Assembly (NCBI RefSeq): GCF_030161095.1
Contig: NZ_BSPP01000004.1
Location: 248,001 to 312,000, forward strand
DNA: 64,000 nucleotides
Direction: 5' to 3'
Source of the DNA: Cypionkella aquatica
GTDB taxonomy: Bacteria; Pseudomonadota; Alphaproteobacteria; Rhodobacterales; Rhodobacteraceae
Shown here: piece by piece, positions 18,254 to 20,493 of the stretch
How the letters are laid out: every line of letters starts with the position of its first letter
Numbering within the stretch: the stretch's first letter is position 1
Program-made: the position numbers and the translations under genes
The notes under the pieces: generated by a model
Seen by the model: only the letters and a program-made list of their open reading frames with translations
What the model was told of the DNA's origin: nothing
Databases searched by the model: none

Positions 18254-19188
18254 GCCATCACCCGCACCGCACAACGGACCGCGCGGGCGATGTGGGATGC
18301 GTGAACCGGATCATCAGGCGCAAGTCTTGGCGCCGCCCAACCGACCGAAGCGCAGCAGCGCGCAAGTGTGAACAGATCCGCCAAAGCAGCGGTGGCGGGC
18401 CGGGTTTGCGCATAGCCTGCCACCAAAGCATCGCGGATTTGGGAGTAATCGGGCTCGTGCAGGTTCTGGCTAAGGGCGGTGCCAAGATCATAGAGCCGAA
18501 AGCCAAAGCCGGAATCGTCAAAGTCGATCAGTGACAACGCGCCGTTGTGAACAAGGATATTCTCGCGCAGCACATCGGCATGGATCGGGCCGAAATCGCC
18601 GCCCGATTGCTGATGCTCGCGCAGGTTTTGGTGCAAAAACGCCCGCGCGGCATGCAGGATTTCAACCTGCGCGGGGCTGGCCGAGGGATGCTCCCAGAAC
18701 CGGCCCCAGAACGGGGTCGCGCCCACAAGACCGTCAATATCCCAGCGGGGGCGGGTGAAATCGGGCGGCAAGGTCAGTCGATCCGTCTCGGCATGCACGC
18801 GGGCAAGCAAAGCGCCCAAGGCATGGTGCCGCGGCAAGCGGTCTTCGGGCGCGCAGGGCAGCGGTTTTCCGGCCTCGCCAAAGGCTTCACCCTCCATCCA
18901 CGCGATGATCGAGGCGTTGCGGCCATTGGACAGTTTCACCAGAAACGCGCCGGTGCGGCTGGGCAAAGCGGCGGGCACGGCGACCCCGGCCTTGGCCAAA
19001 GCGGCGCACCACCAAAGTTCTGATCTGATCGCAGCATCGTCCTGATAGCCGACACGGTGCAGACGTAGCGCCGCGCGCCCGATGGGCAAAGCCACCTCGA
19101 ACACCGCGTTTTCGCGGTTGCGCAGAAGGCGCGTTACCTTGCCATTCCAATGGCTTACGGCCTCGGCTGCCAAAGCTTCAATGGTCAT
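18250..19188 (-). CDS. Aminoglycoside-phosphotransferase/homoserine-kinase-like protein
   Basis: A 312-residue protein-kinase-like small-molecule kinase of the APH family (Pfam APH type). The ATP lysine strand may be in RAALRLHRVG; the catalytic loop is PIHADVLRENILVHNG, with H-x-D and N, and the metal aspartate lies in SLIDFDDSGFGFRLYDLGTAL. Members phosphorylate small alcohols such as homoserine, choline or sugars; the substrate here is unknown. Its start overlaps the arfB stop by 4 bases, so it follows arfB in one operon. No resistance phenotype should be inferred. Confidence 0.8.
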   Translation of the reverse strand: MTIEALAAEAVSHWNGKVTRLLRNRENAVFEVALPIGRAALRLHRVGYQDDAAIRSELWWCAALAKAGVAVPAALPSRTGAFLVKLSNGRNASIIAWMEGEAFGEAGKPLPCAPEDRLPRHHALGALLARVHAETDRLTLPPDFTRPRWDIDGLVGATPFWGRFWEHPSASPAQVEILHAARAFLHQNLREHQQSGGDFGPIHADVLRENILVHNGALSLIDFDDSGFGFRLYDLGTALSQNLHEPDYSQIRDALVAGYAQTRPATAALADLFTLARCCASVGWAAPRLAPDDPVHASHIARAVRCAVRVMA

Positions 19189-19607
19189 TCGTCATCGCCC
19201 GGTTTGCCACGCAGGGCCTTTACCTCGCCCCGTTGCACTTTGGCGGCGACACGGCGCAACTGGCTGCCGTAGCTGGGCTTGGTAGCGATGCGGCGTTTCG
19301 GGGCAACCAACGCGGCGCGGATCAGATCGGCCAGACGTTCACGCGCGATTTCGCGATTGCGGGCCTGGCTGCGGGTGTCTTCCACTTGCAAGATCAGCGC
19401 GCCTTCCAGCGTCCAGCGCCGCCCAGCGAGTTTTTTCAACCGCGCCTTTACCCCCGGTGCCAGATTGGGCGAGCGTTCGGCCTCAAAACGCAATTCAACA
19501 GCCGTGGATACTTTGTTGACGTTCTGGCCACCCGGCCCCGAGGCGCGCATGAAGCTTTCGCTCAGCTCCCAATCCGCAATTGAAATGGTGTCGGTGATCC
19601 ACAACAT
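19185..19607 (-). CDS. arfB: Alternative ribosome-rescue factor (peptidyl-tRNA hydrolase) ArfB
   Basis: A 140-residue protein that frees stalled ribosomes by hydrolysing peptidyl-tRNA. The catalytic motif GGQNVNK stands at residues 26-32, with Q28 the key residue. The C-terminus is a basic, likely disordered tail (SYGSQLRRVAAKVQRGEVKALRGKPG), which inserts into the mRNA channel in characterised homologues. Length matches E. coli YaeJ. Upstream on the same strand is the small RNA/short ORF unit at 19630-19866, which ends in a terminator before arfB and may be linked to its control. Downstream it overlaps the phosphotransferase gene. Confidence 0.95.
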   Translation of the reverse strand: MLWITDTISIADWELSESFMRASGPGGQNVNKVSTAVELRFEAERSPNLAPGVKARLKKLAGRRWTLEGALILQVEDTRSQARNREIARERLADLIRAALVAPKRRIATKPSYGSQLRRVAAKVQRGEVKALRGKPGDDE

Positions 19608-19630
19608 AAGCGCAAACTAGCGGGGGTTCT

Positions 19631-19672
19631 GGAAAAGAGAAAGGGCTGCCGGCCTGTATGCGGCAACCCTTT
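19631..19672 (-). terminator. Terminator hairpin of the small RNA unit upstream of arfB
   Basis: On the minus strand the arms AAAGGG-TTGCCG and CGGCA-GCCCTTT (19640-19672) pair over a 9-base loop, then CTCTTTTCC follows. One unpaired base lies in each arm. The arfB ATG is 24 bases after the T run, so this hairpin decides whether transcription reaches arfB. Confidence 0.6.
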
Positions 19673-19745
19673 CCGAGATCTAAGGAGATGGGCCAGTTAG
19701 GTATCAAAAGCCCAATCTGTGGTCTGTTTCGCTAGAGGGCTGCCC

Positions 19746-19802
19746 CTAGAAAACACCCCCCATGACTGTCCCGACACCGCTCTCCAATATCACTCTAGAC
19801 AC
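19746..19802 (-). CDS. 18-residue leader peptide candidate
   Basis: A short frame starting GTG at 19802 and ending TAG at 19746-19748, encoding MSRVILESGVGTVMGGVF. The ribosome site AAAGGAGGT (19809-19817) is an almost complete complement to the 16S rRNA tail and stands at ideal spacing, far stronger than that of most genes here. The stop codon lies within a hairpin. The peptide has no signal or recognised motif. The region is too short for ordinary gene finders. It could be a regulatory uORF for arfB or a small protein in its own right. Confidence 0.5.
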   Translation of the reverse strand: MSRVILESGVGTVMGGVF

Positions 19803-19837
19803 TGGGTCACCTCCTTTCAAAATGTTGCCGATAAGGA

Positions 19838-19866
19838 AAGCCTGACACAGATTTTCGGTTTGTCAA
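19838..19866 (-). promoter_or_regulatory. Promoter of the small RNA unit
   Basis: A perfect TTGACA -35 hexamer (19861-19866 on minus) is followed at a 17-base spacing by AGGCTT (19838-19843) as a weak -10. Transcription would start near 19831, about 14 bases before the strong ribosome site. Confidence 0.45.
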
Positions 19867-19872
19867 AAGGTT

Positions 19873-20493
19873 TTACGCAGCGCGGCTTGCGTATTTTGCA
19901 ATGGCCAGGCGGAACGGCATCAGGGCGATTAAATCGACGGCAACTTTTACACAAAAGTCAGCCAAGGCCAGCGATTGCCATAGCGGAACCTCGGGGCCAA
20001 AGCCCAAAAGCGGCACCAGACCGGTCGCCCAAGACACATCATTTGCAGGCTCTAACCAGATGAAATCAGCCGAGAAAGCCAGAGTGAAGAAGATCATCGT
20101 ATCTACCGACGACCCCATCAGCGAGCCTAGGAACGGCGCGCGCCACCACTCGGCCCGGCGGAGTTTGTCAAAGATCGTCACATCCAGCAATTGGCCGATC
20201 AGAAACGCCAGACCAGACGCGACCGCCACCCGAAAGGTGACAAGCGGACCAAATTCGCCAATGATCTGCGTGCCAATCGCCGAGCAGACCAGACCAACTG
20301 CAAAGCCAGCATAAACCACCCGGCGGGCGGCGCGGGCACCGTGGAAACGGTTGACGAGTTCAGAGACCAGAAAGGCGAAGGGATAGGTGAAGGCGCCCCA
20401 GGTCAGCCATTGGCCAATCGGATATTGCACCAGAATATTCGAGGCCACCACGATGATGGCCATGGCGATCACGCCAAGCAGCAGTTTGTTCAT
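19873..20493 (-). CDS. yhhQ: Queuosine precursor transporter (YhhQ/VUT family)
   Basis: A 206-residue inner-membrane protein with about six hydrophobic segments, of the vitamin uptake transporter family that imports preQ0/preQ1 for queuosine in tRNA. Typical parts are SNILVQYPIG, TYPFAFLVSELVNRFHG and LGSLMGSSVDTMIFFTLAF. The ATG at 20493 (MNKLLLGV) is chosen; an in-frame start at 20550 would add a polar stretch. The ribosome site is weak (CGGAAT). Other queuosine genes are not nearby. A small RNA promoter starts just past its stop codon. Confidence 0.88.
   Translation of the reverse strand: MNKLLLGVIAMAIIVVASNILVQYPIGQWLTWGAFTYPFAFLVSELVNRFHGARAARRVVYAGFAVGLVCSAIGTQIIGEFGPLVTFRVAVASGLAFLIGQLLDVTIFDKLRRAEWWRAPFLGSLMGSSVDTMIFFTLAFSADFIWLEPANDVSWATGLVPLLGFGPEVPLWQSLALADFCVKVAVDLIALMPFRLAIAKYASRAA

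Follow-up and report, generated by a model that had tools for sequence, protein, structure and literature searches.

What is the short transcription unit that precedes an arfB-like gene on the minus strand of Cypionkella aquatica: a leader that governs its neighbor, or a gene in its own right? The original prediction, made from the letters of the window (the whole stretch of 64,000 nucleotides analyzed here), had proposed a translated leader that senses ribosome arrest and controls read-through into arfB, with a free small RNA as the alternative. From comparison with related loci, we find that the segment probably does not act as a switch dedicated to the neighboring arfB, and that the alternative of a free small RNA is supported.

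Organization of the locus

On the minus strand, the parts follow one another in the order Vut_1 gene, TTGACA, Shine-Dalgarno (SD) sequence GAAAGGAGGTGACCC, GTG, 18-codon ORF to TAG, stop hairpin, CATCTCC, terminator and arfB. The positions originally assigned to the promoter, SD, ORF, stop hairpin, terminator and arfB ATG were all correct. The features, from upstream to downstream, are:

19873-20493, minus strand: Vut_1 family transporter gene, the upstream neighbor (Pfam PF02592, 87.3 bits)
19861-19866, minus strand: TTGACA, -35 element, start of the conserved TTGACAAACACAAAATCTGTGNCA block (exact in 39 of 50 aligned loci)
19633-19836, minus strand: predicted RNA, with its 5' end placed by promoter spacing and the CAACA leader, and its 3' end at the T tract
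19804-19818, minus strand: extended SD GAAAGGAGGTGACCC, complementary to the 16S rRNA 3' tail with one mismatch
19808-19814, minus strand: 5' strand of the SD lock, GGAGGTG (98.3% of cells paired, changes one-sided only)
19746-19802, minus strand: 18-codon ORF, GTG at 19802 to TAG at 19748-19746 (frame and length kept, amino acids not detectably)
19784-19805, minus strand: start-codon hairpin CCAGTGTC/GATATTGG (93.8% of cells paired, changes almost only one-sided)
19732-19749, minus strand: stop-codon hairpin with CARN loop, covarying (91.6% paired vs 75.0% in shuffles)
19684-19690, minus strand: 3' strand of the SD lock, CATCTCC (anti-SD), pairing with the SD in the fold of relatives
19639-19673, minus strand, with T-rich tail to 19633: intrinsic terminator hairpin (a strict terminator is also typical of relatives)
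19614-19619, minus strand: TAGTTT, putative own -10 box of arfB, beginning 12 nt before the ATG (conserved TANNNT)
19185-19607, minus strand: arfB-like gene, a neighbor outside the RNA, ATG at 19607 (Pfam RF-1 PF00472, 73 bits)

The perfect TTGACA reported at first is present, and lies 47-50 nt ahead of the SD motif in the aligned Rhodobacterales-type loci (exact in 39 of 50). Simple scans paired no -10 box with the TTGACA of the window and did not list the window terminator. We also note that a conserved block, TTGACAAACACAAAATCTGTGTCA (19843-19866, minus strand), is an imperfect inverted repeat in relatives and might serve as an operator in addition to a promoter.

The ribosome-binding site and its distribution

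Complementarity of the SD was counted against what we take to be the exact mature 3' end of 16S rRNA. The near-complete SD match held, the complement running without interruption over 12 bases in the window and over 17 in the GTG family form. The duplex of the SD with the 16S tail is predicted at -23.8 kcal/mol, compared to -13.4 for the best among the 42 long ORFs of the window. Since a direct search for the 16S tail succeeded in none of 21 genomes, the tail sequence was taken from an oligonucleotide table (PMC6943124).

The commonest family form of the SD is GAAAGGAGGTGATCC; the genome of C. aquatica has no second stretch within one mismatch of it, and eight with two mismatches. The GAAAGGAGGTGAYCCAGTGTCT block (up to two mismatches) was found in 36/61 genomes, including this one and all 14 others of the genus, and a similar pattern (up to one mismatch) in 75/387 members of the class, while the exact Rhodobacterales form occurs, one copy each, in 49/120 genomes of the family. 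Nearly all genomes with a match have a single copy (the exception, G048, has two sites), and reversed patterns, used as the control for the motif searches, gave no match. One of the motif searches yielded at least 120 stretches. The search patterns contain the SD, NTG and TC, so that these letters are in part conserved by construction and only the remainder is independent evidence.

A reading frame kept without a detectably kept peptide

The 18-codon ORF is kept among relatives. All 51 readable VUT-positive loci, which were chosen by synteny alone, have exactly 18 codons, ending in TAG (26), TAA (13) or TGA (12); one more locus is truncated. In 24 further loci (after removal of 6 repeats from 30), we found 18 codons in 22, 20 in one and 24 in one, a set that is not wholly independent because its search pattern included TGGAG inside the ORF. 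The longer Rhodobacterales-type ORFs are those of L196 (24 codons) and L199 (20 codons). Across all groups, the ORF frame closes at 14-35 codons in 159/165 loci, compared to 54/164 and 44/163 for the other two frames and to 35.5% when the non-Rhodobacterales loci were shuffled (375 shuffles). The six misses are L151 (104 codons; regarded as a chance match) and five Azospirillum-type loci (56-59 codons), all excluded from the helix tests. No TGG was seen in the ORF, against about six predicted from marginals (P = 3e-5, with relatedness ignored).

The amino acids behave differently from the frame: comparing synonymous with nonsynonymous changes gave pN/pS of about 1, with no detectable amino-acid selection. 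The ratio was 0.85 in Rhodobacterales (0.63-1.19; 22 pairs) and 0.93 elsewhere (0.81-1.08; 30 pairs); because RNA structure can suppress synonymous change, a ratio near 1 could hide weak selection on the peptide. Entropy was equal across the three codon positions (0.75, 0.74, 0.73). Conservation thus covers where the ORF starts, how long it is and where it stops, but not detectably its amino acids, so that translation as such may count for more than the peptide.

Separately, the five Azospirillum and similar loci (L076, L103, L112, L154, L157) combine a perfect ribosome site with an ORF of 56-59 amino acids, whose product looks like a secreted small protein by its hydrophobic N-terminus.

Terminator and fold of the RNA

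A terminator with a T-rich tail was likewise confirmed. A strict terminator follows the motif in 145/165 testable loci, compared to 20/532 control positions, and the terminator ends at a median distance of 174 nt from the motif (5-95%: 150-205; 145 loci). An earlier criterion (164/165 loci; control 149/238) was too lax and was replaced by this stricter one. Together with the conserved ORF, ribosome site and hairpins, these results support the complete small transcription unit described at the outset.

We compared folds in 51 Rhodobacterales-type loci, chosen by peptide motif and VUT synteny; alignment A2 comprises 50 (L148, without the terminator pattern, left out) and A1 comprises 49 (L048, without the loop, also left out). 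Indels kept RNAalifold from recovering the stop hairpin on a MAFFT alignment, so fixed windows (A1) were used. The hairpin said to hold the stop codon covaries, with 6/7 pairs changed on both sides and 91.6% of cells paired (75.0% in shuffles), and the scores of this hairpin and of a third helix were reached by 0/300 partner permutations (n = 50), which ignore relatedness. In relatives, the second hairpin of the original prediction belongs to a larger fold, where CATCTCC (19690-19684) is the pairing partner of the SD.

In this larger fold, GGAGGUG:CAYCUCC pairs in 98.3% of cells, and the start codon sits in a helix, CCAGUGUC/GAUAUUGG, paired in 93.8% (50 sequences each). For the SD lock and start hairpin taken together, shuffles come close to the observed pairing (95.5% vs 95.8%); since changes are almost only one-sided as well, both elements rest on conservation. 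The 7-mer that pairs with the SD is found in 22/24 further loci, compared to 252/799 background windows.

In Rhodobacterales the start site is predicted to be occluded. The unpaired probability of the SD was 0.008, compared to 0.26 in shuffles (more occluded in 49/49), and that of the start codon 0.08, compared to 0.40 (more occluded in 46/49). When Rhodobacterales transcripts were folded as they grow (length counted from a point 10 nt ahead of the motif), the SD was unpaired at 0.35-0.69 up to 140 nt and at 0.04 at 150 nt, and the start codon was mostly paired at every length (0.07-0.15). With the ribosome-binding site blocked, opening of the CAYCUCC strand rose from 0.02 to no more than 0.25 (n = 45); the SD was not reopened by a ribosome modeled on the stop codon.

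The SD lock is not general. In other orders, neither the SD (unpaired 0.32 vs 0.26 in shuffles, n = 79) nor the start codon (0.50 vs 0.39) was occluded beyond shuffles, and a lock common to all orders was rejected, as occlusion beyond shuffles is confined to Rhodobacterales. There, instead, it is the opening 16 nt of the ORF that pair with the pre-terminator segment, beating all 300 partner permutations (n = 92). This closing-helix signal comes from the non-VSH loci (0/300 permutations reach the score, n = 52), and the VSH subgroup alone did not exceed permutation (40/300, n = 40). When the closing helix was tested by shuffling letters, the test proved weak, with P ≤ 0.05 in 11/50 Rhodobacterales and 2/92 other loci; the closing helix is thus claimed from the partner-swap test, whose results are inflated by shared ancestry since permutations ignore relatedness. 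The fold tests were made without the 20 loci that lack a strict terminator, and the occlusion test covered 128/145 loci. One record titled Pararhizobium (L121) shows the Rhodobacterales type of lock, AAGGAGGTG with CATCTCCTT, together with an ORF of 18 codons.

Relationship to arfB

Is the RNA then a leader or attenuator, in which translation of the ORF governs read-through into arfB? Proximity speaks for this idea. A same-strand arfB lies downstream in 46/171 loci, all with VUT upstream (the Rhodobacterales type); it is at most 400 nt from the motif in 42/52 VUT-positive loci (further off in 4) and in 21/24 further loci, and arfB starts 13-132 nt (median 30; 42 loci) past the terminator end. 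Moreover, in two Hyphomonadaceae records, L059 and L105, arfB lies upstream on the opposite strand, about 175 and 1030 nt away, so the arfB link is not wholly confined to Rhodobacterales.

The wider distribution argues against it. Loci without VUT have no same-strand downstream arfB in the flanks examined, which vary among these loci and in many span 1.5 kb. Within the type, 6/52 VUT-positive loci have no arfB in the flank examined, including L018 and L073 with their shortened flanks; the RNA is nonetheless kept in L007, L045, L079 and L116, without arfB in the flank examined, and in L032, L044, L049 and L096, where arfB lies 564-953 nt past the terminator. Terminator energies are at most slightly weaker beside arfB (-23.2) than elsewhere in the type (-24.5) or in other orders (-26.2). 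In addition, a TANNNT box starts 12-13 nt before the ATG in 21/40 arfB genes (background 43/2000; the other 19/40 have no box), which suggests that arfB has a promoter of its own, and the SD of arfB is weak (mean -4.3 kcal/mol); arfB may be read as a leaderless mRNA from that promoter. On these grounds the proposed arrest-sensing leader is disfavored, and we regard control of arfB by read-through as improbable. If real, the promoter of arfB would have a -35 region overlapping the terminator of the small RNA.

No constant downstream target gene was found across the loci. Outside the Rhodobacterales type, the long ORF that comes next lies on the same strand in 37/91 loci and on the other strand in 52, with 2 lacking a strand call; the calling of long ORFs is crude, giving the same strand in only 28/42 Rhodobacterales-type loci, where arfB usually follows.

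Two further neighbors may be mentioned. Beside L083 (Microvirga), the divergent upstream gene, on the minus strand, resembles by eye what we take to be release factor 3, and arfB in Rhodobacterales is likewise a release-factor relative, possibly by coincidence. In one genome the small RNA has an alphaproteobacterial tmRNA gene (L166:2723-3021) at a distance of about 1.2 kb.

Relationship to CC2171 (RF01867)

The segment had not been recognized as a known family, a view that we correct: it is related to Rfam RF01867 (CC2171), though it scores below the threshold of that family. In a permissive Rfam scan, the covariance model does match the window (26.1 bits, E = 0.0059; the score is the same in the whole genome), but the match misses the 75-bit cut-off. 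At E ≤ 1 the model also matches 6/14 control genomes, five of them outside Alphaproteobacteria, so the match in the window alone proves little and the link rests on intermediates.

The RF01867 cut-off was passed by 7/18 loci and failed by 11; those passing are L074 (Rhizobium), L060 (Methylobacterium), L041 (Bosea), L071 (Brevundimonas), L035 (Phenylobacterium), L083 (Microvirga) and L063 (Falsiroseomonas). In a second set of 20 loci, 19 matched at E ≤ 0.1 with 29-91 bits, and only L167 gave no match at that threshold. The intermediates include L007, of Rhodobacterales type, with 43.2 bits (E = 9e-6), and L008, with an SHG start in the Rhodobacterales frame. Judged by these alignments, the window RNA is a divergent relative of RF01867 and not a curated member of it, and the Rhodobacterales RNAs are a branch of a group that spans several orders of Alphaproteobacteria, CC2171 included.

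With CC2171 the window RNA shares the 5' leader CAAC..GAAAGGAGGUGAUCCAGUGUCU, the extended SD and NTG-TCT block (cmscan alignment), usually a single copy, a body closed ahead of the terminator, a length of about 160-200 nt, and a terminator hairpin after the closing helix. It differs in the sequence of the body and in that its closing helix uses the SD itself (SD:CAYCUCC), not the first codons with the pre-terminator segment. CC2171 is typed as an sRNA in Rfam, and we find a conserved ORF frame in the family. No function is stated for CC2171/RF01867 in a table of PMC11701678 or in a prediction table for Mesorhizobium huakuii (PMC5596092).

The motif also occurs with a 20-codon ORF in a Gemmatimonadetes MAG (L034) and with a 14-codon ORF in a Nitrospinota MAG (L094), possibly by contamination or chance.

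Discussion

We lean toward the view that the segment is an autonomous small RNA gene whose ORF would be translated without its peptide being the selected product, and whose fold would compete with ribosome binding. What is new is a Rhodobacterales variant of CC2171-like RNAs in which a reading frame is kept without a detectably kept peptide.

Two other readings were weighed. The RNA might be a small messenger for a functional peptide, either a small protein or a dual-function sRNA, as the maximal ribosome site, the kept frame and stop, and the recurring peptides (VSR..LE.GVGT in Rhodobacterales, VSHC in others) would suggest. Yet pN/pS is not below 1, entropy is equal at the three codon positions, peptides from different groups have little in common past the first residues, and several of the recurrent residues lie inside helices, all of which makes this reading doubtful. 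Alternatively, the RNA might be a decoy or sensor of free 30S subunits, its long complement to the 16S tail holding the subunit and the ORF merely letting ribosomes clear. The length of the uninterrupted complement in the window, and still more in the GTG family form, fits this idea, as does the one copy per genome in nearly all matching genomes; a self-locked SD in Rhodobacterales would, however, hinder binding to the finished RNA, and the search patterns themselves account in part for how little the site varies. We consider the decoy rather unlikely, to about the same degree as the peptide messenger.

Known small RNAs with short ORFs offer partial parallels. The ORF of the attenuator rnTrpL carries Trp codons, and the window ORF has none. 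As described for rnTrpL/peTrpL of Sinorhizobium meliloti (PMC10117765), this attenuator sRNA has a short translated ORF of 14 amino acids, and the window RNA would resemble it in having a short ORF inside a small RNA; rnTrpL differs in its leaderless start and fixed downstream gene, trpE (PMC10117765), neither of which is found here. Pos19 of Rhodobacter sphaeroides, described as a 219-nt coding small RNA (PMC5036791), is alike as a coding small RNA in the same order, by its description and not by sequence.

Returning to the autonomous RNA with its translated ORF, we consider competition between ribosome binding and closure of the RNA the most likely mechanism. The 5' end of the RNA would present an almost maximal ribosome-binding site, followed by the short translated ORF. 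During synthesis the SD would be partly open, allowing a 30S subunit to load; the pre-terminator segment, once made, would pair back, its partner being the SD in Rhodobacterales and, at many loci from other orders, the first codons. Occupancy of the start site by a ribosome would be incompatible with the closed fold, such that the supply of initiating ribosomes would set the form of the RNA, and either the closed or the ribosome-held form could then act in trans. That the segment is actually transcribed and translated, that closure acts as a kinetic gate, and that the RNA acts in trans is what we infer from these patterns. The full version, in which the RNA is translated without a selected product and reports the supply of initiating ribosomes in trans, with the Rhodobacterales SD serving as the lock, is put forward tentatively, as a possibility clearly less likely than not.

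These results place within an Rfam sRNA family a reading frame that is kept over several orders, with nothing detected to suggest that its amino acids are important. If translation itself is the signal, the family would act, in many lineages, as a sensor of translation initiation.
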